Of a stretch of 64,000 bases of DNA, positions 49,668 through 64,000 are shown one piece after another (the first letter of the stretch is position 1; each line of letters begins with the position of its first letter). The position numbers and the translations under genes were made by a program. The stretch spans positions 744,001-808,000 of the forward strand of contig NC_008555.1 in the NCBI RefSeq assembly GCF_000060285.1, written 5' to 3'. The notes under the pieces are model-generated. The model ran no database searches. It was not told the origin of the DNA and saw only the letters and a program-made list of their open reading frames with translations. The stretch comes from Listeria welshimeri serovar 6b str. SLCC5334. Its GTDB lineage: Bacteria > Bacillota > Bacilli > Lactobacillales > Listeriaceae.

Positions 49668-50737
49668 AGCAACTGCTGAAAATTTTTGTGCCAGTAATTG
49701 TGGTCGCGCTCCTAATGATGCTACTTGCAACAACGATGAATCGCTCAGAAGGCTACGCTGGGAGTAATACGTTGACGATTTATAACTGGGGCGATTATAT
49801 TGACCCTTCACTTATCACTAAATTCGAAAAAGAAACAGGTATCAAAGTCATTTACCAAACATTTGATTCTAACGAAGCGATGATGACGAAAATTGAGCAA
49901 GGTGGAACAACTTTTGATATTGCTGTGCCAAGTGATTATGCGATTAGTAAAATGAAAGAAGAAAATTTACTAATACCGCTTGATCATTCCAAACTACCAA
50001 ATGAAAAATACCTTGATCCTCGTTTTATGGATTTGTCGTTTGATGATAATAATAAATATTCCATGCCGTATTTCTGGGGGACGCTTGGGATTATATATAA
50101 TAAAAAAATGTTTCCTGATAAAAAATTTGATACGTGGAATGCACTATTTGATCCTGAGTTGAAAAATCAAATTTTGCTTATTGACGGTGCACGTGAGGTG
50201 ATGGGTCTTGGTCTAAACAGTCTTGGTTACTCACTGAATGATACAAATAAAAACCATCTCAAAGCTGCCAGAGACAAGCTAGAGACGATGACGCCGAATG
50301 TCAAAGCAATTGTTGGTGATGAAATCAAACTGCTCATGGCGGACAATGAAGCCGGTGTCGCGGTTACTTTCTCTGGAGAGGCAGCAGAAATGCTCAGTGA
50401 AAATGAAGATTTAGAATATGTCATCCCAACGGACGGTTCCAATTTATGGTTCGATAACATGGTCATTCCAAAAACAGCGAAAAATGTCGATGGCGCGCAT
50501 AAATTTATTAACTTCATGTTAAAACCAGAGAATGCCGCCATCAATGCCGAATATGTCGGTTATGCCACACCAAACGAAAAAGCCGTCAAATTGTTACCAA
50601 AAGAAATTTCGAGTGACGAACGTTTTTACCCGGATATGGACGAACTAAATAATTTAGAAGTATATGATAACCTCGGCAAACGAATGCTGTCGTATTATAA
50701 TGAATTATTTTTGGAGTTTAAGATGTATCGTAAATAG
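49664..50737 (+). CDS. potD: Polyamine-binding protein PotD
   Basis: A 357-residue substrate-binding protein: NTLTIYNWGDYIDPSLITKFEKETGIKVIYQTFDSNEAMMTKIEQGGTTFDIAVPSDYAISKM is the typical PotD N-lobe, followed by SMPYFWGTLGIIYNKKMF and the late DNMVIPKTAKNVDGAHKFINFMLKPENA. Unlike most Gram-positive PotD proteins it has no Cys after the hydrophobic leader (LMMLLATTMNRSEG), so it is probably held by an uncleaved signal anchor rather than by lipid. Last gene of the pot operon and last chromosomal gene before the mobile element. Confidence 0.92.
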   Translation: MKQLLKIFVPVIVVALLMMLLATTMNRSEGYAGSNTLTIYNWGDYIDPSLITKFEKETGIKVIYQTFDSNEAMMTKIEQGGTTFDIAVPSDYAISKMKEENLLIPLDHSKLPNEKYLDPRFMDLSFDDNNKYSMPYFWGTLGIIYNKKMFPDKKFDTWNALFDPELKNQILLIDGAREVMGLGLNSLGYSLNDTNKNHLKAARDKLETMTPNVKAIVGDEIKLLMADNEAGVAVTFSGEAAEMLSENEDLEYVIPTDGSNLWFDNMVIPKTAKNVDGAHKFINFMLKPENAAINAEYVGYATPNEKAVKLLPKEISSDERFYPDMDELNNLEVYDNLGKRMLSYYNELFLEFKMYRK

Positions 50738-51072
50738 GGTGAAAACTCAGTTAAAATGGCGTTAAATCAATAAAAAAATAGAGAAATGAGCCACCATTTT
50801 AGCTGTCAGTTTTCCAATTTTCTACCAAAAGCGACGATTTTGTCGCTTTTTTTGCGTTTTCTACCACACTTTTCTACCAGAGAAAAAATGCTGTAAGCCT
50901 TGGTACATCTAGCTTATATAGATGTAGGACAAAAAAGGTAAAAAATGATAAATTCTTGTGATAACTATTTTTGGTAGAAAAATAGTCTTTTTAGGAGGGG
51001 AAAACATCGTTCAAATAAGAAATCCTACAATAGAATCAAATAAGTAAAAATTTCAAACAAAGGAGAAAACAA
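50738..51072 (+). other. Chromosome/ICE junction region with integrase-arm-like repeats
   Basis: This 335-base stretch has no gene. TTTTCTACCA occurs in direct orientation at 50818-50827, 50857-50866 and 50870-50879, and inverted (TGGTAGAAAA) at 50972-50981. Such repeats at the end of a Tn916-type element are the binding sites for the integrase arm domain. Also present are a terminator hairpin at 50827-50850 and a 7-bp stem ACATCTA/TAGATGT (50905-50925). The att core is not identified; it should lie between potD and 50818. Confidence 0.6.
50827..50853. terminator. Bidirectional terminator at ICE end
   Basis: AAAAGCGAC pairs perfectly with GTCGCTTTT around GATTTT, followed by more Ts. It would insulate pot from the element. 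Confidence 0.75.
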
Positions 51073-53739
51073 ATGAATAAGAAAAAACGACAAGCAATCT
51101 CGCTAGTGGGTGTACTCACAGTGATGATTGCTTTTTTTATTACCCCAATTACGGCTCTTGCAGCTTCGGTGAATTATGAAAAAATTGGAGATTACGTCTC
51201 AACTTGGAATATTGCTTCACTAGGAGGATTACACTGGACAGATAACGGTGTGCACATGATTAAGGCAGATAATCAACCTGCTTTTTGTATTGAACACGGT
51301 GTTCTACTGAATGGTGGCTCAGGGTTTGAACCCTCTGAGCTAAACAGTGCAGAAAAAGAACGGCTATCTTTGATCTCATATTACGGTTATCAAATTAGTC
51401 CTACAATGGAAAATTACGGAATCACTCAAAACATTATTTGGGAAGAGTTCGGTGATACATTGTTAACCACTCAACTTCCAAACTATACAAATCGCAAAAA
51501 TGAAATTTTAGCGAAAGTAGCTAATTATAAAATTAAGCCCAGTTTTGCGAATCAGAACATTACATTAAATCTTGGAGATTCTATCACACTGACAGATACA
51601 AACAATGTTTTATCAAAATATGGCAATCTTTTAGAAAATTCCGCAAATCTTCAAATTGAAAAAAATGGAAATATATTGAAATTAACTGCTACGGCTAGTT
51701 CTAAAGAGTCTGGTAAGCTTCAATATAGCATGGTGCCAAAAGATCAAGTGGGTCAAAGTTTCATCTATAAGAAACCTGGTGAACAGACTGTAGCCACATT
51801 TAAATTATCTAATGCTGGAGAAATGAATTTAGCGATCAAAGTGAATCTCAATGGAAATGTAAAATTGAAAAAAGTAGATGAAGATACTGGGCAAGCTGTT
51901 CCTAATACGAAAATGAAATTTGAGTACAACGGACAAATAAAAGAGATTGTCACTGACACGAATGGTTTGGCGCAGATTGATGGAGTAAAAGCAGGCACGA
52001 AAGTAAAAATTACGGAGGTTACCGCTAGTAATGGGTTTGTAAATAAAGGGGAATCAAAGGAGATCACGATTGAACCAAATAAAACAATTGAAGTGGTGTT
52101 TGGAAACAAAGCCCAACAAGGGTTATTAAAATTGAAAAAGACAGGTCAGAAAGCAATAGCTGTTACTACTACGGATTCTGATTATGGACAGCTACATGAT
52201 ATTACCTTTGATTATGTTCCTCTAGCCGATGTAACGTTTAATATTAAAGCTCGTGAAGACATTAAAGTAGGTGATTATGTTCATGCTAAAAAAGGAAGTG
52301 TTGTTGCGACTGTTAAAACAGATGCAAAAGGCGAACTAATCAATATGCCTAAGCTATATCTAGGTAAATATGAAGCTATTGAAACCAAGGCACCTGCTGG
52401 ATATTTGATGAATACGACATCTCTGCCCTTTGAGTTTACCTATGAAGGGCAAAATGTGGAGTTGGTTTCTCAATCACTTGAAGCAAAGAATGATTTTCAA
52501 CAACTAAAAATCACTGTTCATAAAAATGAAGAACAGATTCAGGAGTGGAAGGAAAATGAGCCAGTATTAGAAGAAGTGAAAGCGAATGACAAAGTGTTTG
52601 GTTTATTTACGAACCAAGAATATGCAATGACTGACAACACCACTGTGCCAGCTGATGGTTTATTGGCATTTGGAACAGTTAAAGACGGTGAACTTGTTTT
52701 TCCTAACCTACAACTGATGGAAGGGAGATACTACATTCAAGAATTGGATGCTGGGGAGAGCCATAACATCGATACGACACATCATGAATTTGAGTTTACC
52801 GCAACGGATCATGAAACAGAAAAAGTCATTGAACTTTATGCACCTAAAGAAAATCAAGAAGATGAATCGCTGCCGCTGTTAAATAAACTTCATTTTAATC
52901 ATTTTTCATTAAAGAAAGTAAATGAAGAAGCTACGTTAGAAGAAAAAAATGGCTATGATTTTACCTTCACTGGAAATGGCAAGGATGCTATTTTTACTCT
53001 GGAAACGGAAGACAAAGAAGTAATTCAAACAGTCACAGTTGACAAGGATTCTTTGGCTATGTTCACGAATGTACCTGTTGGAACGTTCTATTTGAAAGAA
53101 AAGCAACCATCTTCTGAGAGTTATGTACGTTCTTCTGAAACCTATAAAATTGTCTCTACACTAAAAGGCGTTCAAGCCTATGATAGTAAAGGGCAGCTTC
53201 TTGGTGAAGCAATGAATGAAGAAACAAGTGAAGAAGAGGAAGAAACTGAGCAGACCGAAGAATCAGATTCTAAAGAACCTATAAAAGATGAGCCAATCGT
53301 ATTACTAGAAATCAAAAACCATTTGGTTAAAGGCGTTGCAGAATTAACGAAAACAGATGTATTGAATGGGAAGGCTCTTCCAAATACTGGTATTCGTATT
53401 CTTGATAAAGATAAAAAAGTAGTTATTGAAGGGAAAACAGATAACCAAGGTCAATTCACCTTTGAAAAATTACCAAAAGGCACATACTATTTCCAAGAAT
53501 TTGAAGCACCTATTGGTTATCAATTAGACGAAACACCGATTCAATTTGAAATCAAAGAAGATGGCAAGGTAGTCAAAAGTACCATGACCAATCAACTTAT
53601 TCCAAATGAAAAAGGAAATTTGCCACAAACAGGTGAAAAAACGTCCATTTTAGGAATCGCGCTAGGAAGTTTGTTACTGGTTGGTATTGCTATCTATTAC
53701 TTTTACGCAAAGAAAAAACAAGGAAATAAAACAAAATAA
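51073..53739 (+). CDS. Thioester-domain Cna-B LPXTG adhesin of the ICE
   Basis: An 888-residue cell-wall protein. Signal peptide 1-30 (LTVMIAFFITPITALAAS). Residues 30-170 form a TQXA thioester domain: Cys72 in FCIEHG and Gln119 in TQNIIWEEF are the pair that forms the internal thioester, able to bind host or surface groups covalently. Then about five Cna-B/SpaA-type modules (270-345, 350-475, 490-600, 605-700, 750-840), an acidic linker, LPQTG (about residue 852), and a membrane anchor with a Lys-rich tail. It corresponds in place to the LPXTG cargo of other Listeria Tn916-type elements. Confidence 0.88.
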   Translation: MNKKKRQAISLVGVLTVMIAFFITPITALAASVNYEKIGDYVSTWNIASLGGLHWTDNGVHMIKADNQPAFCIEHGVLLNGGSGFEPSELNSAEKERLSLISYYGYQISPTMENYGITQNIIWEEFGDTLLTTQLPNYTNRKNEILAKVANYKIKPSFANQNITLNLGDSITLTDTNNVLSKYGNLLENSANLQIEKNGNILKLTATASSKESGKLQYSMVPKDQVGQSFIYKKPGEQTVATFKLSNAGEMNLAIKVNLNGNVKLKKVDEDTGQAVPNTKMKFEYNGQIKEIVTDTNGLAQIDGVKAGTKVKITEVTASNGFVNKGESKEITIEPNKTIEVVFGNKAQQGLLKLKKTGQKAIAVTTTDSDYGQLHDITFDYVPLADVTFNIKAREDIKVGDYVHAKKGSVVATVKTDAKGELINMPKLYLGKYEAIETKAPAGYLMNTTSLPFEFTYEGQNVELVSQSLEAKNDFQQLKITVHKNEEQIQEWKENEPVLEEVKANDKVFGLFTNQEYAMTDNTTVPADGLLAFGTVKDGELVFPNLQLMEGRYYIQELDAGESHNIDTTHHEFEFTATDHETEKVIELYAPKENQEDESLPLLNKLHFNHFSLKKVNEEATLEEKNGYDFTFTGNGKDAIFTLETEDKEVIQTVTVDKDSLAMFTNVPVGTFYLKEKQPSSESYVRSSETYKIVSTLKGVQAYDSKGQLLGEAMNEETSEEEEETEQTEESDSKEPIKDEPIVLLEIKNHLVKGVAELTKTDVLNGKALPNTGIRILDKDKKVVIEGKTDNQGQFTFEKLPKGTYYFQEFEAPIGYQLDETPIQFEIKEDGKVVKSTMTNQLIPNEKGNLPQTGEKTSILGIALGSLLLVGIAIYYFYAKKKQGNKTK

Positions 53740-53760
53740 AAATGAAAGAAGGAATCAACT

Positions 53761-54081
53761 ATGTCAAATCGTGTCACAAGTATTGCCTTAAAGGAACAGC
53801 AGTTGGGTGCTAAAATCAAAGCTACGGTGAAAGAGGAACGAGAAATTTATGTAGAAGGGAAACGAGTGCCTTGTCGCATTTTCACTGCTTCATCTCCGAT
53901 ACATCCAGATTTTGAAATCATTGTGCCCAATCTAAGAAACTCACAACGTTTTGAAGGAAGAAAGGAAGTGGAATTGAAGGATGCTACACTAGTTCCTAGT
54001 GCTAAACGAAACAACATTGGAACAGCTAGCCGGACGTTAGAATTACAAGTATTTGCTAAGCAATTAATTACACTAAACTAG
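53761..54081 (+). CDS. ICE DUF961 protein (Tn916 Orf23-like)
   Basis: A 106-residue protein of the DUF961 family (YdcO/YdcP-like), in the position of Tn916 Orf23. Seen: GKRVPCRIFTASSPIHPDFEIIVPNLRNSQRFEGRKEVELKDATLVPSAKRNNIGTASRTLELQVFAKQL. It is soluble and predicted beta-rich. Family members are always found next to the FtsK-like coupling protein of Tn916/ICEBs1 elements and are needed for element replication or transfer in some; the molecular role is not established. A good GAAAGAAGGAA ribosome site precedes it. Confidence 0.8.
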   Translation: MSNRVTSIALKEQQLGAKIKATVKEEREIYVEGKRVPCRIFTASSPIHPDFEIIVPNLRNSQRFEGRKEVELKDATLVPSAKRNNIGTASRTLELQVFAKQLITLN

Positions 54082-54097
54082 AAAAGAGGATAAATAA

Positions 54098-54505
54098 ATG
54101 AGTTTAAAATTTGAAGAAAATACGATTAAAGACTTTGATGTCAAGAAAACATTTGGAACCTGTTATTACTTAAGCGCTCAGTCTATCTATGAAAACGATA
54201 GCGAAGGGAACCGAACAGAAATAGTAAGAGAGCAACGTGTAACAATCTATTCCGAAGTAAAAAATGATCAAATTGATATTACATTGCCAGAAACAACGGA
54301 TTTAGCTTCATTTTCTTATGATGATGAAATTGAACTGACAGGTGAAGTGACTGCTTTAGCGTGGCTCTCTTCCTATGCTGGGTATAATGATTCCATTCAA
54401 TCAGAACAAGCTTTTAAAATTCGAGCTGGTGGAATTAAAAAGGTAACAACACCACATCAGAAACCTGAAAAGCAAAAGTCTACTGGAACTTTACAAGGGG
54501 AGTAA
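54098..54505 (+). CDS. ICE DUF961 protein (Tn916 Orf22-like)
   Basis: A 135-residue paralogous DUF961 protein in the Orf22 position. LASFSYDDEIELTGEVTALAWLSSYAGYNDSIQSEQAFKIRAGGIKKV (about residues 69-116) is the conserved core; the last 20 residues are a basic, low-complexity tail. Orf23, Orf22 and Orf21 are normally cotranscribed, and here gaps are 16 and 3 bases. In ICEBs1 its counterpart works with the helicase processivity factor; this is knowledge of relatives, not shown here. Confidence 0.8.
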   Translation: MSLKFEENTIKDFDVKKTFGTCYYLSAQSIYENDSEGNRTEIVREQRVTIYSEVKNDQIDITLPETTDLASFSYDDEIELTGEVTALAWLSSYAGYNDSIQSEQAFKIRAGGIKKVTTPHQKPEKQKSTGTLQGE

Positions 54506-54508
54506 CGG

Positions 54509-55924
54509 ATGAAATTTATAAACTACAGGGGCACCAGAATCCGTCCGTATCACTTGAATGTCTATCGTCATTACTTGTTTGGTATGTGGTCTCCAGCACT
54601 CCTTGTTAGCGGTGCCTATGGCTATTTTGTACTATATCCATTAGTAAGTGAAATTTTTGAAAAACAATCAATAGATTATGCTGCTCTCCTTCTTCCAGTT
54701 GGAGGGCTTTTTTTATGGCTCTTACTTCCGTTGTTCATTTGTTTATGGGGGAGAAGACAGTCTTTTCTAAAAGGTGGTTTCTTTTATCGAGCCTATCAAC
54801 GGCAAATGTTGGCACGAATGTTAAAAAGCAATGGCTTGTACGATAAGAAAGAACGAAAATCAAACGAGCGAATCGCAGAAAAGATGATTTTCCCTAAAGT
54901 TTATTATCGGAATACCAAGGAAATTCTTTATTTAACGGTTCCAACAGATGGAATGAAGTGGCATGATCGTTTTGAAAAAATTGCGAAAACTTTTGAAGAA
55001 ATGTATATTGCCGATTTTATCAATGTGCAGAAAGAGATGGGTTATACAACCTATTCCTTGATGATTGATGTGATTAGTAAACGGATTGATATTTCAGATT
55101 GTGTTGTCACAAATGGTCAAGTCAAATTGATGGAAGGTGTGGTTTGGGATTATGCAGAAGTGCCACATATGTTAATTACAGGCGGCACAGGTGGAGGCAA
55201 GACCTATCTAATTTTGACGTTAATTCAAGCATTGGTAAAAGTGGGAACCGTTGATATTTGTGATCCAAAAGAAGCGGATTTAAAGGATTTACAAGACCTT
55301 AAATTATTCAAGGGACATGTCTTTACTGGAACAAAATGGATTACTCGTTGTTTGAAAAATGCCGTAGCAGAAATGAATCGCCGCTACGTCTATATGAAGC
55401 TTCTCCCAAACTATACAACAGGGAAAAACTTTGCTTATTACGATATTCCGCCTTATTTCATCATTGTAGATGAATGGGCCGCATTTTTCGGAACCTTAAA
55501 CTATAAAGAACAGGATGAAATTTCAGGGTATGTAAAAGAATTAGTGTTAAAGGCTCGTCAAGCAGGTGTTTTCTTAATTCTTGCGACACAACGCCCTGAT
55601 GCAGAGAACTTTGGTGGAGGGATTCGTGATAATATCTTGTTTCGGGTGAGTGTTGGAAAGCTTCAAGAACAGGGCTATTATATGACTTTTGGATCAGATC
55701 AAAAGAATAAGGCGTTTATCAATAAGTCAATTAAAGGAAGAGGGTATGTGGATGATGGCTCAGCTGTACCAAGAGAATTCTATGCTCCATTTGTTCCTAA
55801 GGGCTATAACTTTTTAAAAGAATTTGAAAAGATTGAATCGATGAAACTATTAGATATCAGGGAGGTTGATCCAACTGCTGAGGAAATTGAAGTGGCACAA
55901 AAAGCATTTGAAGTAATTCGATAA
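54509..55924 (+). CDS. FtsK/SpoIIIE-type coupling protein (Tn916 Orf21-like, TcpA)
   Basis: A 471-residue type IV coupling protein. Two N-terminal membrane helices (about residues 25-88) lead to a cytosolic FtsK motor: Walker A GGTGGGKT (225-232) and Walker B FIIVDEWAAFF (about 320). It pumps the relaxase-bound strand into the mating channel. KARQAGVFLILATQRPDAENFGGGIRDNILFRVSVG is typical for this group. The start follows GGGGAG. In Tn916 this gene is followed by oriT and the relaxase gene; here oriT follows and the relaxase gene is displaced by two inserted genes. Confidence 0.92.
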   Translation: MKFINYRGTRIRPYHLNVYRHYLFGMWSPALLVSGAYGYFVLYPLVSEIFEKQSIDYAALLLPVGGLFLWLLLPLFICLWGRRQSFLKGGFFYRAYQRQMLARMLKSNGLYDKKERKSNERIAEKMIFPKVYYRNTKEILYLTVPTDGMKWHDRFEKIAKTFEEMYIADFINVQKEMGYTTYSLMIDVISKRIDISDCVVTNGQVKLMEGVVWDYAEVPHMLITGGTGGGKTYLILTLIQALVKVGTVDICDPKEADLKDLQDLKLFKGHVFTGTKWITRCLKNAVAEMNRRYVYMKLLPNYTTGKNFAYYDIPPYFIIVDEWAAFFGTLNYKEQDEISGYVKELVLKARQAGVFLILATQRPDAENFGGGIRDNILFRVSVGKLQEQGYYMTFGSDQKNKAFINKSIKGRGYVDDGSAVPREFYAPFVPKGYNFLKEFEKIESMKLLDIREVDPTAEEIEVAQKAFEVIR

Positions 55925-56448
55925 GAGGAATAATGCTAGTTACGCCAAATTATGATGAGAAATGGTAATGAACAAGTACATGGGAAACCACACTATTTCA
56001 ATGGAAAAGGGGAAAGGAAAAGTAGTGTGTTTCGTTTTCCTTTTTTTGTTGCCTCAGCGGATGGAAGGAGCTGATACGCACCACTTCGTCTATGAACAAG
56101 GTTTCCTTGTGAAAGCCACACGTCTTAACGGGTGGCGGTAGAACGAAAAGGAACAGGCAGGTATCCTGTCTGTGACTGTGTAGAGGTAAGGGCGAGCAAC
56201 GCTCGCTCTTACCTGTTACCCCCGCTTAATAACATGGGGGTAACTTTTCATATTAAAAAAAGTGAATTGGATTTACCCTTAGTAATACTAGCTTTTTAGT
56301 TTCTATCATTTAGGAAACTTTTCAATCCGATTTAGTCAACTTTTATTAAATTTTGAACACCACTCCATTTGTTTTAATCGTTTCTGTCCCAAAATGTTTA
56401 TTTTTGTCCCTGTTTATGGTATAGTGTTGTTGGAAGGGAGTGAGTACT
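55925..56448 (+). other. Intergenic oriT region of the ICE (no gene)
   Basis: This 524-base gap contains the predicted oriT (56184-56244), a purine-rich stretch ending in a GGAAAA/TTTTCC hairpin with T run (about 56016-56047), and flanking inverted arms CACACTA/TAGTGTG (about 55991-56030). Upstream of the AAA gene lie TTTCTGTCCC (56381-56390) and TTTTTGTCCC (56401-56410), 20 bp apart, followed by the extended -10 TGGTATAGT (56417-56425). A 40-residue open frame near 55952 has no ribosome site and is not called. Confidence 0.6.
56184..56244 (+). other. Predicted origin of transfer (oriT)
   Basis: Two adjacent stem-loops. The first pairs 56184-56197 (AGGTAAGGGCGAGC) with 56201-56214 across an AAC loop (14 bp with one G-T). 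The second pairs GTTACCCCC (56215-56223) with GGGGGTAAC (56236-56244) around a 12-base loop. A C-run/G-run inverted repeat with a TAACA-type loop just before the G-run is the hallmark of Tn916 and ICEBs1 oriT, where MobT nicks. Position just after the coupling gene matches Tn916. Confidence 0.7.
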
Positions 56449-57489
56449 ATGAAAAAGAAAAATATTTTGAATTTAATTAGATATTACTCAGAAAAAAATG
56501 ATTTACAATTCAGAAATGAGGCAATAGAAATTGCACGATATTTTGATCAGAATGGTGATCATCAACTTTCAGAATATATCATGAGTTTACTATCTGATGT
56601 AAATACATTTGTTCCACAAAGTGATTCTTTTGAAAGTTCTTTTTTCAAAGAGTTGAGTATTAATTCTGAGCCGCTGCCACTTCCAAAGCAAATAGCTGAT
56701 GATATCAAAGGTATTATCAATGCTGTTAATCATCATGTCGGTATAAATAAATTTTTGTTTGAAGGAGCACCTGGAACAGGTAAAACTGAAAGTGTCAAGC
56801 AGATAGCTAGGCTTTTAGATCGACGTTTATACATGGTTGAAATTAGTGAGTTGATTGATAGTAAAATGGGACAGACCAGCAAGAATATGGTGACTATTTT
56901 TAATGATATCAATGAGTTACCGCACCCTTCAAAAGTACTAATACTTTTTGATGAAATAGATGCAATTGCTTTAGATAGAGTTAATTCTAATGATGTGAGA
57001 GAAATGGGAAGAGTTACATCTACGATGCTGAGAGAATTGGATAAATTAAACGAAGAAGTTGTCCTTATCGCAACCACCAATTTATATCAAAATTTCGATA
57101 AAGCACTTACTAGAAGGTTTGACTCTACTATAAATTTCGATCGATATGATAGGGAAGATTTGATTGAGATTGCTGAAAGCATACTCAATACATTATTGAA
57201 AAAATTCAAAAGTGCTGGAAGAGATATGAAGTTATTCAAAAAAATTATTGGAAATATGGAGACTATTCCTAACCCAGGAGAATTAAAAAATCTTATAAAA
57301 GTCTCATTAGCATTTAGTGACCCAAATAATGACTTTGATTATCTAAGACGGTTGCTTCAAACAACGCAAAACCTTTCTGAAGAAAATGAATTAAATGAAT
57401 TAAAAAAAATGGGCTTTACAGTGAGAGAAATCGAGCTACTGACGGGCGTTTCTAAAAGTCAAGTTGCGAGAGAGCTGAGGGGAGAATAG
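56449..57489 (+). CDS. AAA ATPase of IetAS-like defence pair
   Basis: A 346-residue single-domain AAA+ ATPase: Walker A GAPGTGKT (106-113), Walker B ILFDEIDA with Asp168-Glu169, sensor-1 VLIATTNLY, and arginine finger LTRRFD. Unusually, the C-terminal 25 residues (MGFTVREIELLTGVSKSQVARELRGE) form a resolvase-type helix-turn-helix. It starts at the ATG at 56449 after GGAAGGGAG; a GTG 9 bases upstream overlaps that site. The protease gene follows 4 bases later. ATPase plus subtilase in one operon matches IetA-IetS: in Agrobacterium a plasmid toxin-antitoxin locus, later found as a phage defence system. Confidence 0.85.
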   Translation: MKKKNILNLIRYYSEKNDLQFRNEAIEIARYFDQNGDHQLSEYIMSLLSDVNTFVPQSDSFESSFFKELSINSEPLPLPKQIADDIKGIINAVNHHVGINKFLFEGAPGTGKTESVKQIARLLDRRLYMVEISELIDSKMGQTSKNMVTIFNDINELPHPSKVLILFDEIDAIALDRVNSNDVREMGRVTSTMLRELDKLNEEVVLIATTNLYQNFDKALTRRFDSTINFDRYDREDLIEIAESILNTLLKKFKSAGRDMKLFKKIIGNMETIPNPGELKNLIKVSLAFSDPNNDFDYLRRLLQTTQNLSEENELNELKKMGFTVREIELLTGVSKSQVARELRGE

Positions 57490-57493
57490 ACAG

Positions 57494-59722
57494 ATGAATG
57501 ATATTTTGAGTTTAAAAGGTAGTTTTGTACAAAAATCAAATGATAGTAGACCTGGTTCACCAAAATTACCAGCAGGTTCAAGTGTGTCAATATTTGACAT
57601 TGATAGTTTAATTAGTTATTTGCTTGAAATGGATAGATTTTGGGATGCACAGAATATTCTAAATGGTGGTCTCATTAGTGTTTATTATACTAGAATTATT
57701 GCAAAGAGTAACAGAATAAAAGGCTTTTTAGCAGTAGGAAGTCAGTTACCAAACTCAACAATAGTTGGTGCTAAATTTTCAGATGATAAAACAAAACATA
57801 TCATTACTCATTATATTCCCCTCTCTGCTATTAAAGAATCGATTTTGGCAGCTAGAGAAGCAATTAGAATTTTAAAAAATGAATTCTCTGGTAGTGTCAA
57901 TGATGAAATATTTAATGATCCTAAAATATTTCGGAAAATAGATTTTGAAAAGTATACAATTACAAAAACTAAGTTTCAACGGTTGATTGTAGATACAGCC
58001 TATATCGAAAAATTTGACGTTGAGCGTGCGGATTTTGATACAGATAAAAGTTCAATTGTTACTCTATATGAGACTGGAATTGATACGAAAGAATTGTTGA
58101 AAAAAATAGGTATCCCTATATTCAATGAGCGGATATTAAATAGAACAACAATTTTACTTGATGAACAGTATTTACAAGTTTTATTACAGAGAGCGCCATT
58201 TTTAGTAGCGATGGCAGTAGAAAATATTACAGAATTAGCACCAAGTGATTTTATAGAAACTTTTTCAAGTGAAGCTACCTTAATATCATCACCCAAAAGC
58301 GAACCAACCATTGGAGTCATTGATACACTTTTTGATGAAAGGGTTTATTTCCATGAGTGGGTTGAGTTCCATAACATGATTGATGAAAATATTCCAATAG
58401 AACCTTCGGATTATAGACATGGAACATCCGTTTCATCAATTATTGTGGATGGGCACTCTTTAAACCCAGAATTGGATGATGGATGTGGTCGCTTTAAGGT
58501 TAGACATTTTGGAGTTGCTACAAATCGGGCGTTCAATTCCTTTTCAATTATTCGTACTATTAATGATATTGTTAAAAGTAACCGTGATATTCGTGTATGG
58601 AATTTATCCTTAGGTTCAAATGAAGAAGTGAGAGAAAATTTTATATCTGCGGAAGGAGCAATTCTTGATCGAATTCAATTTGAAAATGATGTTATCTTTG
58701 TTATTGCTGGAACAAATAAAAAAGCATTAGATAAAGAAAAACGCATTGGTGCACCTGCAGATTCAATCAATTCAGTTGTCGTAAATTCTGTAGACCATCA
58801 AAAAAATTCAGCCTCCTTTTCTAGAAAAGGAATTGTTCTATCATTTTTTACCAAACCGGATGTTAGTTACTACGGGGGAGGTAATGGCGAATTTCTGAAT
58901 GTTTGTGAACCATTGGGGCAAGCAAGAGTCTGTGGCACATCATACGCAGCACCATGGATTGCGAGAAAACTGTCCTATCTAATTGATATTATTGGACTTA
59001 GTAAAGAGGTTGCCAAAGCTTTATTGATTGACTCTTCAATTGGTTGGAATAGTAAACCAGATTTTAATCAACTAGCTACTTTAGGACATGGAGTTGTGCC
59101 AATTAAGATTTTGGATATTCTTCAATCTCCCTCTGATGAGATACGGTTTATTGTAGAAGGAGTTTCTGAAAAGTATGATACTTATAACTATAGCTTCCCA
59201 GTTCCTGTCCATAAAAATAAACATCCCTTTGTTTCAAAAGCAACACTATGCTATTTTCCTAAATGCGCTAGAAATCAAGGTGTAGATTATACAAATACAG
59301 AATTGGATATATACTTTGGCAGACTTGATAATAGTGGTAAGTTGAAATCAATAAATAAAAATAAACAAAGTGTCACAGACGAAGAGCACTATCTTAAAGA
59401 AGTAAGTGCTCGGAAAATGTTTCGAAAATGGGATAATGTTAAACATATCAGTGAGCCCATCACTGCACGAACACAAGCAAAAAAAGTTTATGATAACCCG
59501 TTATGGGGAATGAGTATCAAAACAAAAGAGCGCTTAGATACAAATGATGGTGTGGGTATAAGATTTGGAGTCGTAGTTACGTTAAAAGAAATTAATGGAA
59601 TTAATCGAATTGACGACTTTATTCAACAATGTAACTTAAAAGGTTGGCTAGTAAACCGTGTTAATATTGAGAATAGAATCGATATCTATCAAACTGCTGA
59701 TGAAGAAATTACATTTGAATAG
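57494..59722 (+). CDS. Subtilisin-like serine protease of IetAS-like defence pair
   Basis: A 742-residue protein with a subtilase S8 core inside larger flanks. The catalytic triad is complete: Asp277 (GVIDTLFD), His309 (YRHGTSVSSI) and Ser483 (GTSYAAPW); AGTNKK supplies the oxyanion Asn. The first 270 residues have no recognised domain, and 250 residues follow the core. There is no signal peptide, so it acts inside the cell. In IetS-type systems the protease is the toxic effector and the ATPase its controller or sensor; that role is inferred from family and linkage. Confidence 0.87.
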   Translation: MNDILSLKGSFVQKSNDSRPGSPKLPAGSSVSIFDIDSLISYLLEMDRFWDAQNILNGGLISVYYTRIIAKSNRIKGFLAVGSQLPNSTIVGAKFSDDKTKHIITHYIPLSAIKESILAAREAIRILKNEFSGSVNDEIFNDPKIFRKIDFEKYTITKTKFQRLIVDTAYIEKFDVERADFDTDKSSIVTLYETGIDTKELLKKIGIPIFNERILNRTTILLDEQYLQVLLQRAPFLVAMAVENITELAPSDFIETFSSEATLISSPKSEPTIGVIDTLFDERVYFHEWVEFHNMIDENIPIEPSDYRHGTSVSSIIVDGHSLNPELDDGCGRFKVRHFGVATNRAFNSFSIIRTINDIVKSNRDIRVWNLSLGSNEEVRENFISAEGAILDRIQFENDVIFVIAGTNKKALDKEKRIGAPADSINSVVVNSVDHQKNSASFSRKGIVLSFFTKPDVSYYGGGNGEFLNVCEPLGQARVCGTSYAAPWIARKLSYLIDIIGLSKEVAKALLIDSSIGWNSKPDFNQLATLGHGVVPIKILDILQSPSDEIRFIVEGVSEKYDTYNYSFPVPVHKNKHPFVSKATLCYFPKCARNQGVDYTNTELDIYFGRLDNSGKLKSINKNKQSVTDEEHYLKEVSARKMFRKWDNVKHISEPITARTQAKKVYDNPLWGMSIKTKERLDTNDGVGIRFGVVVTLKEINGINRIDDFIQQCNLKGWLVNRVNIENRIDIYQTADEEITFE

Positions 59723-59728
59723 TATAAG

Positions 59729-59761
59729 GAAGTTCTGCTGAAAAGTAGAGCTTCTTTTTTT
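59729..59761 (+). terminator. Terminator of the ATPase-protease cassette
   Basis: GAAGTTCT pairs with AGAGCTTC (one G-T) around a 10-base loop, followed by a T run, 7 bases after the protease stop. Together with its own promoter this makes the cassette a separate transcription unit. Confidence 0.75.
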
Positions 59762-59826
59762 TGAAATTTGAGTGGTTTCGAATGAACAATACTTTAAATA
59801 AAATATGTAGTATATAAGGAGGATAA

Positions 59827-61128
59827 ATGAAAGGAGAACAAATAAAAAAATTACGCCAACGAATAGGGATGAACCAAACGACTTTGGCCGAAAAGCTTGA
59901 AATATCTAAAGGATATTTATCAAAAATAGAGAACAATCAAAAGAAGCTTAATTCGTCTATTATTAATAAACTGCAATCAATTTTCCATTTGACTGGTGGA
60001 ATTTTGCCTATGGAAGCTAAAATAGATTTTTTACGAATTCGTTTAAAAATTGATTGCCCTACTCAAGTGATTACAAATATATTAAAAATGGACCCCAATG
60101 TTTTTGGATACAAATCTTATGGGTTCAACCATTATACAGAAACATATTTTTTTAGTGAAATATTTATTTTCTCAAACCCCAATGATATTAATATGGGTGT
60201 CATGATTGAGTTAAGAGGTCAAGGGTGCAGAGAGTATGAACTGATTTTGGAAGAGAGAAAAGAAAACTGGAATGATTTCTTTTGGAGACTGTATCAAGAT
60301 GACCTTTTTGGTAAAGGGGTTTTGATAGATACCAAAATTACTCGGATTGATATTGCATTAGATGAAATGATCTCGTGTTTATATAAAAATTATGATTTAC
60401 ATGAGTTAAAGCGAAAATGTGAACAAGGATTAGTGGATACTACATTTCGCAATTTTGATTATAGAGGTGGATTTTCTTTTAGAAAAGGAGATCGTGTGAA
60501 CAAAGGACTATCACTATATTTTGGCTCTAGGCAATCTCCATATTATCTTAATTTCTATGAAAAAGATTATGAGCTGGCAAAAAAAGAAGGGCTATCTATT
60601 GAAATGGTACATCAAAAATATGGTGTTAAAAATAGATACGAAATCCGCCTTGCAAACGAAAAAGCCTATCTTTTTGTGGAATATCTATTGTCAACTGGCG
60701 AAACCATAGAGTGGGTTGCTAGAGAGCTAATTGATACCTCTTTAAAAGTTTTTGATTCTGATAATCAAGGAAATCGTATCAGTTACAGCGCCAATTGGCG
60801 AATGGTCATTGAAAGTATGCAAGAATTGAAGCTGACCATGAAAGGAGAGAAACCTAATTATGAAAAATCATTACGTTGGCTCTCCAATTATCTTGCCCCA
60901 ACGTTAAAGAAAATTTGGATTATGGATCAAACGTTTGGTACGGATGAACTAATGACACGTATCCAACAAGCAGAACTGAAAGAAAAGGATCAAGAGGAAT
61001 TGGTAAAGCTAACCACAACGATTAAAGAGTTATTAGTACAAGAAGAGGAAGAAGCAGTATCCTCTAAAACTGTATCTGTTACGCAACAAGAAGTGGAGCA
61101 GCTGTTAGCCCAATTTTTATTTGAGTGA
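59827..61128 (+). CDS. MobT relaxase (Tn916 Orf20-like)
   Basis: A 433-residue relaxase of the MobT/Rep_trans family. An N-terminal XRE helix-turn-helix (1-55, IKKLRQRIGMNQTTLAEKLEISKGYLSKIENNQKKL) precedes the replication-initiation domain (about 60-300), with GVLIDTKITRIDIALDEM as the metal-binding motif and NRYEIRLANEKAY as a conserved segment. The relaxase nicks oriT and stays bound to the 5' end of the transferred strand. The start follows GGAGG. In Tn916 it directly follows oriT; here 3.6 kb intervene. Confidence 0.9.
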   Translation: MKGEQIKKLRQRIGMNQTTLAEKLEISKGYLSKIENNQKKLNSSIINKLQSIFHLTGGILPMEAKIDFLRIRLKIDCPTQVITNILKMDPNVFGYKSYGFNHYTETYFFSEIFIFSNPNDINMGVMIELRGQGCREYELILEERKENWNDFFWRLYQDDLFGKGVLIDTKITRIDIALDEMISCLYKNYDLHELKRKCEQGLVDTTFRNFDYRGGFSFRKGDRVNKGLSLYFGSRQSPYYLNFYEKDYELAKKEGLSIEMVHQKYGVKNRYEIRLANEKAYLFVEYLLSTGETIEWVARELIDTSLKVFDSDNQGNRISYSANWRMVIESMQELKLTMKGEKPNYEKSLRWLSNYLAPTLKKIWIMDQTFGTDELMTRIQQAELKEKDQEELVKLTTTIKELLVQEEEEAVSSKTVSVTQQEVEQLLAQFLFE

Positions 61129-61140
61129 GAGGTGAATGAA

Positions 61141-61626
61141 ATGATTGAGTTATATATTGAAAACCCTAAAGCACGTAAAGGGCGTTGGTTTGAGCTACCT
61201 ATTCTGTGGGAAGTTGTACAAGAAAAGTTAGAATTAGAAGATGAAAAAGTATATGAAATCAACGACTACTCAGCGCCTATTAAGTTGTCTAATTTTGAAG
61301 ATTTTGATTACATGAATGAAGTGGCTGAACAATTTGATGAACATGAGGGACATGAAGCGATTAAGTATCTGGAGGAAGTAATTACTGCTGGCTTTTTCAA
61401 TGATCTGTTAGATGCTTTTGAACAGATTGATGAAATTCAAGTCTACTCGAATTGTTATTCCTACAAAGATTATGCTGAACAAATAATGGATGATCTTGGC
61501 TATCTCTCTGGCGTACCAGATATTATCAAATGGAATATTGACTATGAAGGGATTGGAGAAGATTTACGTCAAGATGGCAGGCTCTATCAAGCAAGTGACA
61601 ACACCATTATTGAGGTTATGACATGA
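61141..61626 (+). CDS. ardA: Antirestriction protein ArdA
   Basis: A 161-residue acidic DNA mimic: MIELYIENPKARKGRWFELPILWEVVQEKLELEDEKVYEINDYSAPIKLSNFEDFDYMNEVAEQFDEHEGHEA. The protein is rich in Asp and Glu, as needed to imitate DNA and block type I restriction enzymes when the element enters a new cell. Tn916 Orf18 is the reference. The ATG at 61141 follows GAGAGGTG; the in-frame GTG at 61132 overlaps that site. It shares an ATGA overlap with the next gene. Confidence 0.9.
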   Translation: MIELYIENPKARKGRWFELPILWEVVQEKLELEDEKVYEINDYSAPIKLSNFEDFDYMNEVAEQFDEHEGHEAIKYLEEVITAGFFNDLLDAFEQIDEIQVYSNCYSYKDYAEQIMDDLGYLSGVPDIIKWNIDYEGIGEDLRQDGRLYQASDNTIIEVMT

Positions 61627-61985
61627 ACCAGAAACAATTAGCAGAGAAATTGAAGTACTATGGATTTATTTGCTTGGAAGGGGAAATCCCTGAGCGACAA
61701 GCCAGACAATTTCTTACCGTTAAGAAATTGACACAACGAGAGAATTTAGTGTTTCAGCCTAAAAGGGAGCTTTGCTTTGAACGAATGTTGTCAACGCACA
61801 CGAGTCTCTATATTGAAGGACTGGAGCGCTTTAGTGAGACTGGTTTATATCGTGGTTTTTCCTACGATTTTTACAAAGCAACCTATCTGTTTAGCTCCCA
61901 GCCCAGCCGTTTAAAAATTTATGGGACGCAGCTTTCTACGAGAGAACTTCTTTATTTATTAAAGGGGTTCTCTTTTTTACATTAA
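61623..61985 (+). CDS. ICE hypothetical protein, ArdA-coupled
   Basis: A 120-residue basic protein whose start overlaps the ardA stop (ATGA), so it is translated with ArdA. I do not recognise a domain. It has an N-terminal short helix pair (QKQLAEKLKYYGFICLEGEIPERQARQF) and an aromatic-rich C-terminus (YDFYKATYLFSSQPSRLKIYGTQLSTRELLYLLKG). No signal or membrane segment. Its last codons overlap a terminator hairpin. It may take part in antirestriction or transfer control. Confidence 0.7.
   Translation: MNQKQLAEKLKYYGFICLEGEIPERQARQFLTVKKLTQRENLVFQPKRELCFERMLSTHTSLYIEGLERFSETGLYRGFSYDFYKATYLFSSQPSRLKIYGTQLSTRELLYLLKGFSFLH
61941..61978 (+). terminator. Terminator before the mating-channel genes
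   Basis: AGAGAACTTC pairs with GGGGTTCTCT (G-T pairs included), followed by six Ts. It lies within the end of the preceding reading frame and 27 bases before tcpC, so it may act as partial termination or attenuation within the transfer operon. Confidence 0.6.
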
Positions 61986-62004
61986 AAAAACAAGGAGTGA
62001 CTCC

Positions 62005-63024
62005 ATGAACTTTATAAAAGAGAGAAAACAACCAAAGCCAGTTGTTCCAAAAGAAGAAAAAGCAGCGAGTATCCGAACCGTTCGTCTAAGTGTTCTGATC
62101 CTGACACTTTTTTTAGTGGTAAGTGGTCCAATTGCGTTGTTTCAGTCTTCCAAGATGCAAGGAAGGATAAAAAATGAACAAGCAGCATTATCACAAACCA
62201 TTCAAGAAGAACTGTTGAAAAATACGAGTACGCCTGTTGCATCTGAATTATACAAGCAGTTCTTACATCCATTTATCACTACCTATATCTCAATTCCAGC
62301 TGATCAAAAAGCATTTGAAGAAAGACTTAATACGTTGCAGGATACCTATTTTAACTTTGAGCAGGAAGAAGAGAAAAATACAGGGCTTGAGAGAAAATTA
62401 CTTTCTACTGATTTTTATGATTTGGTAAGTGAGCAGGGACAAACGATCGCAAAATATAAGATTGCTTATGAAATTATAACACCTATCACAAAAGAACGAG
62501 AAGTGAAGAAAAAAGAAGGAGACAAAGAAGTAACAATCAAAGAAAAATACATCGATTATGAGAAAAGTGAAGTAAAAATGTTACTCAATATTCCTTTTGT
62601 TCAATTAGACAATCAATCGTTTAAAGTTACTGCGTATCCTTATTTTTCAATGGAGCCTGCTTTAACATCTGGAAAGGCACTTCAATCAACAATTGATCGA
62701 TCTCAGTACCAACGACTAGAGAATAAAGAAGAAAAAGCAATTACCAGTTTTGTGCAAGCTTTTCTTGAAAAATATGTTTCAGATTCGATAGAAGACATGA
62801 GCTTTTTGATGAAAGAGCCAGAGTTATTGACTGGTGATTATCAAGTTACAGATGTAGCGATTGAACCTTTAATAAAAGAGAAACAGATTGTCGTCTTTGT
62901 TACGTTCAAACTAGTGGATGGACAGACCAAAAGTAGTCATATAGAAACGATGACATTAGGACTGAAACACCGAGACAACACGTATTTTATTGAAAAATTA
63001 CAGCACTATCTAGGAGGAATTTAA
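62005..63024 (+). CDS. Conjugation protein TcpC (ConB/Orf13-like)
   Basis: A 339-residue bitopic protein: a short cytosolic N-terminus, one membrane helix (VLILTLFLVVSGPIALFQ, about residues 31-48), and an extracellular part with two NTF2-like domains separated by a charged linker (KEREVKKKEGDKEVTIKEKYIDYEKSEV). This is the TcpC/ConB scaffold of Gram-positive mating channels, equivalent to VirB8. The ribosome site is AAGGAG. The order TcpC, TcpD-like, TcpE matches ICEBs1 conB-conC-conD. Confidence 0.85.
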   Translation: MNFIKERKQPKPVVPKEEKAASIRTVRLSVLILTLFLVVSGPIALFQSSKMQGRIKNEQAALSQTIQEELLKNTSTPVASELYKQFLHPFITTYISIPADQKAFEERLNTLQDTYFNFEQEEEKNTGLERKLLSTDFYDLVSEQGQTIAKYKIAYEIITPITKEREVKKKEGDKEVTIKEKYIDYEKSEVKMLLNIPFVQLDNQSFKVTAYPYFSMEPALTSGKALQSTIDRSQYQRLENKEEKAITSFVQAFLEKYVSDSIEDMSFLMKEPELLTGDYQVTDVAIEPLIKEKQIVVFVTFKLVDGQTKSSHIETMTLGLKHRDNTYFIEKLQHYLGGI

Positions 63025-63348
63025 ATGAATCAACTCTATTCTAAAAAGCAGCTTCTAACAATGAAACTCGCTGTTATTTGTAATGCGATTTTCTTATTCT
63101 TTTCAATCTCGCCCTTGGCTTATGCCGATGCGAACGCAAAAGAAGCCAGCAACTACATTTTAAATGATTGGATTGCCCCGATTTTCGGTGTCGTTGTTGT
63201 CTATTTAGTTATTAAAGAATTTATGAATTCAAAGTGGATACAAGGTTTTGCGATTCTGTTTTTTGGCGGCATTATTTATGCTGTGATTAAAGACCCTGCA
63301 AGCATTCTAAACTCATTGACTAATCTAAAAAGCTATTTTGGGTTATAG
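63025..63348 (+). CDS. TcpD/ConC-like small membrane protein
   Basis: A 107-residue protein that starts directly after the TcpC stop with no gap. A signal-like segment (LAVICNAIFLFFSISPLAYADA, cleavage after ADA likely) is followed by two helices (APIFGVVVVYLVIKEFM and GFAILFFGGIIYAVIKD). Size, topology and position match TcpD/ConC, a small channel component. Sequence identity to a named family cannot be judged by eye. Confidence 0.7.
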   Translation: MNQLYSKKQLLTMKLAVICNAIFLFFSISPLAYADANAKEASNYILNDWIAPIFGVVVVYLVIKEFMNSKWIQGFAILFFGGIIYAVIKDPASILNSLTNLKSYFGL

Positions 63349-63350
63349 CC

Positions 63351-64000
63351 ATGAACAGAGAAAAACAGATTTTAGATTATCGTGAGCCGTTTAATGCACC
63401 CTATATGATTCGAGAAATTGCGAAAAATGTCAATTTACCGTTTGTGGTCTATGCACAAGATTTTACTATCGCTACGGTGAGCTTTGCGCTGGTTTTCAGC
63501 TGCTTATTGTTTTTGTTTGGAATGAACCAATTAGTGATTATGATCTCTATTGCGATACCTTACGGATTGATTCAATTGTTTAATCGTGTGGAACCCGATG
63601 GAAAGCGAGCCGATATTTTCTTAAAAGATTACCTGAGCTACTTGGTGACGTATGTCATGAAGCATCAGGTGTTATACCATGAGCAGCTTCAAACAATGAA
63701 ACAAGAAAAAGTGATTTATGACTGCTGCACAGTGACGCTACTAATGATAAAGGAGGAAGAGATACCAATGAATACCATAACTGTAGATCAAGTGAAAAAA
63801 GAAATAAAAGAACTCATTGTTCCAGAACTCATCCATGAATTTGAGCCCATAAAGGCAAGAGAAGAAGGGTTCTATGGATTATTTGAAACAGATGATGAGG
63901 TATTACTTATGAAAAAGACCCTTCATCGCCAGTATACAGATGGATTGCTTCCACTGACGGAGGTGCTCAAGTTGAAAGACCAATACCAACCATTAATCAA
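63351..64000 (+). CDS. TcpE/ConD-like conjugation protein, possibly fused to the next gene (partial)
   Basis: An open frame from the ATG at 63351 to the window edge with no stop. The first 140 residues fit TcpE: LDYREPFNAPYMIREIAKNVNLPF, two helices (TVSFALVFSCLLFLFG and LVIMISIAIPYGLIQLF) and VEPDGKRADIFLKDYLSYLV. TcpE usually ends near residue 120-140. At 63768 an in-frame ATG follows GGAGG (63752-63756), the likely start of a second protein (MNTITVDQVKKEIKELIVPEL...) that I do not recognise. The +1 frame shows TAA-TGA-TAA (about 63742-63750) just before that ribosome site. Frame fusion or a single-base indel are both possible. Confidence 0.65.
   Translation, partial: MNREKQILDYREPFNAPYMIREIAKNVNLPFVVYAQDFTIATVSFALVFSCLLFLFGMNQLVIMISIAIPYGLIQLFNRVEPDGKRADIFLKDYLSYLVTYVMKHQVLYHEQLQTMKQEKVIYDCCTVTLLMIKEEEIPMNTITVDQVKKEIKELIVPELIHEFEPIKAREEGFYGLFETDDEVLLMKKTLHRQYTDGLLPLTEVLKLKDQYQPLI

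Follow-up and report, generated by a model that had tools for sequence, protein, structure and literature searches.

The IetAS cassette and its ICE

In the window, a 64,000-nucleotide stretch of the Listeria welshimeri chromosome, a Tn916-type ICE carries an IetAS cassette, with the oriT region of the element on one side of it and the MobT relaxase gene on the other. The cassette consists of an AAA+ ATPase gene, ietA (56449–57489, + strand), followed after a 4-base gap by a subtilase gene, ietS (57494–59722, + strand); both ORFs are open, and both the gene pair and its place are those proposed in the initial annotation. The same annotation gave the cassette its own promoter and terminator, and signals for both are present: an extended -10 element read from the sequence (TGgTATAGT, 56417–56425, + strand) and, past ietS, an intrinsic terminator listed by the scan (59726–59764, + strand; a 14-pair stem at 59726–59757, then a T-run). 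The generic promoter scan, which found 16 sites where 16.2 are expected by chance, did not list the -10 element; by eye, many relatives have TATAAT-like hexamers in a comparable position.

The ICE measures about 33.7 kb as judged from its end repeats: the left repeat, TTTTCCAATTTTCTACCAA (50810–50828, unstranded), has a partner with 1 mismatch at genome position 828512, both found by pattern match. Integrase-like and excisionase-like ORFs, read by eye, lie just within the right end. The backbone includes a TcpA-type coupling protein (54509–55924, + strand; Pfam FtsK_SpoIIIE), the oriT region (55970–56248, + strand), the mobT relaxase gene, which is the next gene past the cassette (59827–61128, + strand; Pfam Rep_trans, 184.8 bits), and the antirestriction protein ArdA (61132–61626, + strand; Pfam ArdA, 54.6 bits). 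Assignment to the Tn916 type is based on Pfam FtsK_SpoIIIE, Rep_trans, ArdA and TpcC, all of which score over their cut-offs, and on the gene order TcpA, oriT, MobT, ArdA, TcpC, which is that of Tn916; the MobT protein matches NCBIfam MobT at 1e-66 and 225 bits, under that family's cut-off of 600. The oriT region is strongly structured (fold z-score -6.9) and conserved in the alignment with the relative G018, and its inverted repeat GTTACCCCCG...CATGGGGGTAAC (56215–56244) resembles the Tn916 oriT core given in an excerpt of PMC11658703, which places the Tn916 oriT 41 nt after orf21; the nick site is putative. No Rfam family matches 50700–64000 at E up to 1.

Whether the cassette is cargo was addressed through relatives of the ICE and of the gene pair. 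Close relatives of the ICE are few: matches were found in 2 of 25 genus genomes and 2 of 299 class genomes, the L. welshimeri genome being counted in each. Both close relatives (G018 and G296) carry a 76% identical TcpA at the same place and a 73% identical ArdA next to mobT, and both (2/2) lack the cassette; TcpA with the oriT region on one side and MobT on the other align to a cassette-free element, and both relatives have about 400 bp in this interval. Because only two such relatives were found, we do not call the oriT–mobT interval an insertion hotspot. No direct repeat of at least 9 bases that could be an insertion scar is shared between 56241–56450 and 59701–59860. Ten further TcpA loci, 33–45% identical, were excluded from the count of close relatives; IetA or IetS matches occur in none of the stretches fetched around them and MobT matches in five. 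A distant TcpA-like match (31%) at locus L021 lies on the opposite strand.

Relatives of the gene pair occur in other settings. One follows ArdA in a second, distinct Tn916-type ICE, others are carried by plasmids or by contigs that show no MobT match, and the DNA around ietAS relatives contains a MobT match in 0/51 cases, many of these contigs being short. Between the S. mitis and Saccharibacteria copies, DNA similarity is confined to a stretch that starts about 100 bp ahead of ietA and stops where ietS ends. A search of the E. coli collection found no similar DNA. The pair also stays together: at 49 of 51 loci IetA immediately precedes the IetS relative, and at the remaining two (L042 and L053) the IetS match is partial. 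Its absence from both close ICE relatives and its other slot in another Tn916-type ICE argue that ietAS is mobile cargo of the ICE and not a core gene, in keeping with the initial annotation. ArdA, which the annotation had named beside the cassette as a block on restriction, is present in both cassette-free relatives and therefore belongs to the ICE backbone, and its presence is no evidence that the two act jointly.

IetA and IetS

The PADLOC IetA and IetS profiles are the best matches of the two proteins (1e-40 and 2.4e-60), which bears out the IetAS-like identity first suggested for them. Scores against the curated NCBIfam models are far under the cut-offs (IteA NF042959, 118.7 bits against 510; IteS NF042956, 142.9 bits against 900), which indicates that the cassette is a member of a divergent IetAS clade and not the curated equivalog.

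The closest counterparts of IetA (346 aa; Pfam AAA, 91.9 bits; model mean pLDDT 85) are classical AAA proteins, among them VCP, katanin and the proteasome ATPases. Its Walker A motif spans G106–T113 as annotated, with G106, P108, G109, G111 and K112 invariant in 52 aligned IetA proteins, as are D168 and E169 of Walker B. At its C-terminus, residues 315–344 (57391–57480, + strand) form three helices in the model and are assigned to a helix-turn-helix (HTH), also on conservation and on the operator co-variation described below, with residues 336–344 as the recognition helix; the match to Pfam HTH_38 (E 0.0012, 19 bits) is below the cut-off of 27. The annotation considered this domain unusual. 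However, the PADLOC IetA profile covers it (profile positions 5–368 of 374 align to residues 4–343), Pfam HTH_38 is detected at E up to 0.1 in 14 of 52 IetA proteins (among the 25 families listed), and HTH-like C-termini beyond these matches, including those of distant IetA, were judged by eye; the HTH thus appears not to be peculiar to this copy. It is degenerate in the M. hyorhinis IetA, and the ietA copies of L. costaricensis (L005, L073) are interrupted by an in-frame stop at codon 264, ahead of the HTH, while ietS is open.

IetS (742 aa; Pfam Peptidase_S8, 100.7 bits) has its catalytic domain at residues 270–532 (58301–59089, + strand); the annotated triad D277, H309 and S483, together with N408, is invariant in 51 aligned IetS proteins. 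Just before this domain, residues 184–243 (58043–58222, + strand) model as strands and two helices that align with pro-subtilisin prodomains, and residues 184–544 give a continuous structural alignment to unprocessed pro-subtilisins, the linker 247–259 being of low confidence in the model. Pfam I9 finds no match in IetS, and a sequence comparison with PDB chains gave none that is similar at E up to 0.001. As modelled, IetS is a subtilase that carries a candidate pro-subtilisin-like domain, and it may be a zymogen.

A candidate tandem operator at the ietA promoter

What is new here is a putative operator, a tandem TTGTCCCA pair upstream of ietA, which is kept across distant bacteria. The two candidate copies, CTGTCCCA (56384–56391, + strand) and TTGTCCCT (56404–56411, + strand), lie 20 bp apart, the second just before the -10 element. 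Such a pair at the promoter, with a period of 20–21 bp, accompanies ietA relatives in Bacilli, mycoplasmas, Proteobacteria and Saccharibacteria. In the first set (the window and 48 relatives; L039, L042 and L053 were left out, having no ietA start), 46 of 49 upstream regions contain the pair with no more than 3 mismatches over its 16 positions, the period being 20 in 29 regions and 21 in 17 (18–24 being permitted), a quality reached by 0.5% of Markov-resampled upstream sequences. The L. welshimeri genome has a single exact TGTCCC pair with a period of 20, the one at the ietA promoter; one other sequence, repeated in the genome, accounts for 6 of the 7 one-mismatch matches.

The association has exceptions: L011 has an intact HTH and no operator, and M. 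hyorhinis, whose HTH is degenerate and which lacks the operator, still has both genes, so that autorepression is not essential. Nor does the operator seem to be a general feature of IetAS, since the best tandem repeat at each of 17 distant IetAS loci was no better than that of resampled sequence (the lowest fraction of resampled sequence reaching the best repeat was 0.06, at period 13); the circuit may thus be limited to this clade. Candidate pairs in Macrococcus (TTTTTCATTA), missing from a second Macrococcus plasmid, and in E. faecium (GAACAAAT) had scores that were not significant and were set aside. We also rejected a wider regulon: the exact pattern is present in 13 of 398 Bacilli-class genomes, only one of which has the match before ietA, against 17 matches for the reversed control, and these searches give no sign of a genomic regulon for the repeats. 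A phage decoy was discarded as well, the short pattern being found in at least 120 viral stretches, of which 80 were examined, one with IetA and the others chance-like or simple repeats; a stricter promoter pattern had no match in viral sequences.

Co-variation of operator and recognition helix

A rule predicting the operator from the recognition helix was fixed before fresh loci were inspected. The fresh table has 39 rows, and the operator is found in 31/31 rows with intact K336, S337 and R341 and in 4/8 without. These rows are not all independent: L292 is a fragment, L284 and L291 represent one gene, and L289, L293 and L294 each match a first-set locus at 90% identity or more. Once these and other near-copies (sharing 90% identity or more with the first set or among themselves) are removed, 31 rows are left, with the operator in 25/25 copies with an intact helix versus 4/6 without (Fisher about 0.03, by hand from the counts). 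Since only half of the rows without an intact helix lacked the operator, the written prediction was borne out in part.

Co-variation singles out one residue and one base. Among 72 residue–base pairs tested, R341 with the third C of GTCCC is the strongest: this base is lost in 4/4 loci with a changed R341, which are mutually only 45–51% identical, versus 4/69 others. The pattern was spotted only after the fresh-locus test, and its Fisher value is about 6e-5 (by hand from the counts); the permutation p is 0.001 with kinship ignored, or 0.07 when multiplied by the 72 pairs. Residue 338 (N/R) was considered as a specificity determinant and rejected, having been picked post hoc in the first set (5/5 vs 3/45) and found with a changed core in 0/3 fresh N338 loci. 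Because the operator is conserved with an intact helix and Arg341 co-varies with the third C, IetA is most likely an antitoxin and an autorepressor at once. Of the two HTH roles raised by the initial annotation, DNA sensing or autoregulation, it is autoregulation that gains strong sequence support, and the annotation's overall interpretation is partly supported.

Proposed mechanism and alternatives

We consider it probable that the cassette is a self-contained cargo module of the IetAS toxin-antitoxin type, and a candidate defence module, in which IetA both restrains IetS and represses its own operon through TTGTCCCA. The ATPase IetA would hold in check a protease probably capable of damaging the cell that makes it, while the C-terminal HTH of IetA would bind the tandem operator and shut down the ietA-ietS operon, as type II antitoxins do with their operons. 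Should the element or IetA be lost or disturbed, unrestrained IetS would damage the cell, which would stabilise the ICE and may abort phage infection; the pro-subtilisin-like domain could keep IetS zymogenic. An addiction role would have precedents, by analogy, in sgiAT of SGI1 and TA132/3 of mycoplasmas: toxin and antitoxin roles are reported for SGI1 S026/S025 (sgiAT; PMC5006074, in excerpt) and for mycoplasma AAA-ATPase/subtilase pairs, for whose testing E. coli and B. subtilis are described as of limited use (PMC8562856, in excerpt).

The pair could instead be a dedicated antiphage system, IetA sensing an infection product and unleashing IetS proteolysis with ICE stabilisation as a by-product, which we hold to be a serious possibility, if somewhat short of an even chance. 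PADLOC and NCBIfam class relatives as antiphage proteins, and ORFs flanking the ietAS relatives include some with matches to defence-candidate, Fic, TIR or restriction families (1–4 matches per family, within the 25 families listed, among 138 ORFs hand-picked for family scans from the 192 of up to 500 aa out of 239 collected). Yet no family among those listed recurs as it would in a defence island, the literature searched, in its excerpted form, yielded no phage experiment on this clade, and the relatives with tests found there were assayed as toxin-antitoxin pairs.

Direct repeats are bound by many regulators, and the tandem repeats might be the target of a host factor or of another element-encoded regulator, the IetA HTH having another target; but the repeats go with ietA across phyla, form no genomic regulon, fall within the short stretch shared by the S. 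mitis and Saccharibacteria copies and co-vary with recognition-helix residues of IetA, all of which makes this very unlikely. We give hardly any weight to a function in ICE transfer, with IetA and IetS processing or regulating MobT or the oriT complex: a place with oriT immediately on one side and the relaxase gene on the other would suit it, but the pair is absent from both close ICE relatives, and its relatives are carried by plasmids, by contigs that show no MobT match and by a different ICE at a different site. More speculatively, and in our estimate unlikely, IetA could be a DNA-seated sensor whose AAA+ ring, built up head-to-tail along the tandem operator, shuts the promoter while holding a zymogen-like protease, so that a change in operator copy number or ATP would free IetS. 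Copy number could change when the excised ICE replicates by rolling circle beside oriT, when a second IetAS element enters or when a phage replicates, and a single mechanism would then explain stability, incompatibility and phage defence.

The autorepressing toxin-antitoxin module that we favour makes a direct, testable link between an antitoxin and its own DNA, as the promoter tag follows the ATPase across phyla and changes with the recognition helix; IetAS is counted in several defence surveys, and the literature searched, in its listings, yielded nothing on how it is controlled. The co-variation names Arg341 and the third C as the residue and base to mutate, the tandem operator can serve as a marker for the module, and the modelled prodomain offers a second test, whether or not the toxin is a zymogen. 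Finally, the insertion between oriT and relaxase and the cassette-free relatives provide a clean with/without pair for studies of ICE stability.

Comparison with known systems

The backbone of Tn916 runs coupling protein, oriT, relaxase, ArdA, TcpC, an order that this ICE shares; Tn916 is not known to carry a cassette between oriT and relaxase. DnaA is likewise an AAA+ protein with a C-terminal HTH, which reads short asymmetric boxes, and IetA has this combination in common with it; unlike DnaA, IetA falls with the classical AAA proteins. IetA-IetS of the Agrobacterium plasmid pTiC58 is reportedly a toxin-antitoxin with a role in plasmid stability, described by Yamamoto in 2009, and as in this pair an AAA+ ATPase precedes a subtilase in one operon. 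An Agrobacterium IetA on another plasmid, 35% identical to this IetA over only 139 residues, also has an HTH-like end (by eye), but unlike here no TTGTCCC pair lies upstream of its gene.

The SGI1 sgiAT pair (S026/S025) has the same two-gene architecture and is reported to work as a toxin-antitoxin through which an integrative mobilizable element is better maintained; S026 shares 50% identity with pTiC58 IetA (PMC5006074, in excerpt), which places it in the canonical branch, unlike this clade, and SGI1 is an IncA/C-mobilised island whereas the carrier here is a Tn916-type ICE. In mycoplasma TA132/3 (MMCAP2_0132/0133), an AAA-ATPase of 353 aa precedes a subtilase of 757 aa with no spacer, toxicity and neutralisation are reported, and the excerpted text describes no operator (PMC8562856). 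We liken TA132/3 to this clade by these sizes, and M. hyorhinis has a full-length IetS that is 45% identical to the one described here.

A divergent IetAS module carried by a Tn916-type ICE

Overall, the cassette is a divergent-clade IetAS module that lies as cargo between oriT and the relaxase gene of the ICE. Its two genes are as the initial annotation described them: ietA (56449-57489) and ietS (57494-59722) lie 4 bases apart, Walker A and B are invariant across 52 aligned IetA, and the subtilase residues D277, H309, N408 and S483 across 51 aligned IetS. The family alignment favours the ATG at 56449 as the ietA start (GTG 56440 in the ORF list). The promoter and terminator of its own that had been claimed for the cassette are also present, as an extended -10 upstream of ietA and, downstream of ietS, a hairpin of 14 pairs followed by its T-run.

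The IetA/IetS pair was reportedly described in Agrobacterium. The kinship proposed for the window proteins is borne out by the best PADLOC profiles, IetA for the ATPase and IetS for the subtilase. Both proteins score far under the NCBIfam equivalog cut-offs, IetS identity among 30 of the 44 plasmid records is at least 42.8% in five full-length matches and then at most 25.8% in partial matches, and the IetA of 14 distant loci is 19-25% identical; on these sequence comparisons we place the cassette in a divergent IetAS clade. The C-terminal helix-turn-helix of IetA (HTH, residues 315-344) had been thought unusual, a view we drop: it lies inside the PADLOC IetA profile and is also seen by eye at distant IetA ends, Pfam HTH_38 matching 14 of the 52 IetA.

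Within the genus, the IetS copy of genome G004 gives the same 69% match as that of Listeria costaricensis (L005). A 69% identical partial IetS cluster (P0022, 298 member sequences) is source-labelled Listeria monocytogenes, so the clade is present in that species too. In L. costaricensis, codon 264 of ietA is an in-frame stop (L005 233-1264; L073 13678-14709), which precedes the HTH, and ietS is open; one Mycoplasma-order genome has two tandem IetA matches (G571:C1:667535-669691; loci L284 and L291). There is no constant third partner among 138 flanking ORFs of relatives, hand-picked out of 239: at most four of them matched any one of the 25 families shown. The module is two genes plus an operator.

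A proposed tandem operator that co-varies with the IetA HTH

In the window the operator consists of two copies upstream of ietA, CTGTCCCA at 56384 and TTGTCCCT at 56404, and almost every relative carries the same pair ahead of its own ietA. When spacings of 18-24 bp were allowed, 46 of 49 upstream regions had a pair with at most 3 mismatches in 16, every one at a period of 20 or 21 bp, that is, two DNA turns; the same pair score was reached by 0.5% of Markov-resampled regions. The exceptions are loci L037 and L040 (4 mismatches each) and L011 (no pair). Copy 2 usually stands directly before the -10, and in many cases a TTGAC-like -35 can be read by eye in the spacer that separates the two copies, so that a bound protein would cover the promoter.

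There is no sign of a general regulon behind this sequence, because the exact pattern occurs at control level (13 of 398 genomes of the class, versus 17 matches of the control pattern). The window's own genome has a single exact pair at period 20, and all four of the 398 genomes with a clade IetA (the window's included) have the pair at ietA.

Among 57 clade loci viewed, the operator was missing from two Macrococcus plasmids, where K336 is replaced by I, from M. hyorhinis, where the recognition helix (336-344) is lost, and from L011. A rule relating intact K336, S337 and R341 to operator presence was fixed before it was tested on fresh loci from the Mycoplasma order (matches in 28 of 298 genomes) and the Clostridia (11 of 391), the starting genome being included in both. 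The operator was present in 31/31 fresh rows with the three residues intact, versus 4/8 of the others (none in the remaining 4/8), or 25/25 versus 4/6 once rows sharing 90% identity or more, whether with a first-set locus or among themselves, were removed. An association of residue 338 with the operator failed in the fresh loci and was withdrawn.

The two sets together hold 92 loci, reduced to 77 by dropping near-copies and to 73 by requiring an operator-like pair (at most 5 mismatches). Here the strongest of 72 residue-base associations links R341 to the third C of GTCCC: this C is lost in 4/4 loci where R341 became L, L, K or F versus 4/69 others (permutation p 0.001, with permutations that ignore kinship and a pattern spotted after the fresh-locus test). 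The four changed proteins share only 45-51% identity, which makes independent changes likely. Among the four other loci that lost the third C, E329 is changed in two and K336R and Q338R occur in one each. Such a pattern is the expected trace of a direct contact between recognition helix and operator, and by sequence the operator, which appears to be newly recognised here, co-varies with the IetA HTH. Excerpts of the open-licence literature on IetAS, AAA-ATPase/subtilase pairs and Tn916 cargo (including PMC8562856, PMC5006074, PMC11658703, PMC12479173, PMC10924106 and PMC4231840), a scope that is no proof of absence, hold no mention of an operator or of autorepression of the pair.

The cassette as mobile cargo

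The ICE spans ~33.7 kb and is bounded by the repeat TTTTCCAATWTTCTACCAA, found at 794810 and again at 828512 in genome coordinates; backbone genes for a DUF961 protein, TcpA, MobT, ArdA and TcpC flank the cassette. Upstream, the oriT region (55970-56248) is strongly structured (fold z-score -6.9, several hairpins); its conserved part ends at ~56248 and its last hairpin (56215-56244) resembles the Tn916 oriT core sequence given in PMC11658703. The cassette therefore sits between oriT and mobT, as initially proposed.

Its genes could have been core transfer genes at this position, but two close relatives of the ICE argue for cargo, again as proposed. The TcpA-MobT interval, 3.9 kb in the window, measures 398 bp by match coordinates in G018, a genome of the same genus (TcpA 76% and MobT 72% identical), where the oriT region is conserved and nothing resembles the cassette, and 400 bp in a further relative in G296, of the same order; the cassette is thus absent from both close relatives. 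G296 does have a relative of the pair (IetA 78%, IetS 68% identical) in a second, different Tn916-type ICE (TcpA 42%, MobT 29%), where it is placed after ArdA, and no MobT match was found near the IetS relatives at 51 genome loci in the DNA available around them, many contigs being short. The oriT-mobT position hence looks like an individual event in a module that moves independently. The copies of a Streptococcus mitis contig (L014) and of a chromosome from Saccharibacteria (L016) match at 83.5% DNA identity over 3.4 kb, a stretch that opens ~100 bp ahead of ietA and closes with ietS, and their flanks do not match. The travelling unit is thus promoter, ietA and ietS, and the transfer crossed phyla. 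The Saccharibacteria ietA is apparently frame-shifted.

Because the cassette terminator falls within the transcript expected for transfer, the ICE may depend on read-through, for example by antitermination of the canT kind reported in Tn916 (PMC11658703). Elsewhere, the left end of the ICE (51073-53739) encodes a large surface protein of the LPXTG type, built of thioester (TED) and repeated SpaA domains and common to the G018 and G296 elements (the G296 match, L231, is split by ~1.3 kb). By eye, the right part (L002 9471-18812, a further stretch of the same genome, 813471-822812) has a resolvase-like and a large regulator-like gene (minus strand), LPXTG/WxL-like surface genes and a two-component-like pair.

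Proposed function and comparison with known systems

Most likely, IetA acts at the tandem operator to shut down the operon it belongs to. Expression would then rise when the module enters a new cell, when IetA is lost or when additional operator copies are present. Phage defence is a candidate role of the cassette, suggested by database names only. Toxin-antitoxin function has reported precedents: a mycoplasma AAA-ATPase/subtilase pair is a functional toxin-antitoxin system in which loss of the ATPase alone is lethal (PMC8562856), and the canonical pair of SGI1, sgiAT, is a toxin-antitoxin system that promotes maintenance of the island (PMC5006074). By analogy with these systems the window cassette should act likewise, IetA restraining IetS and loss of the ICE being punished, with the control loop as the new element.
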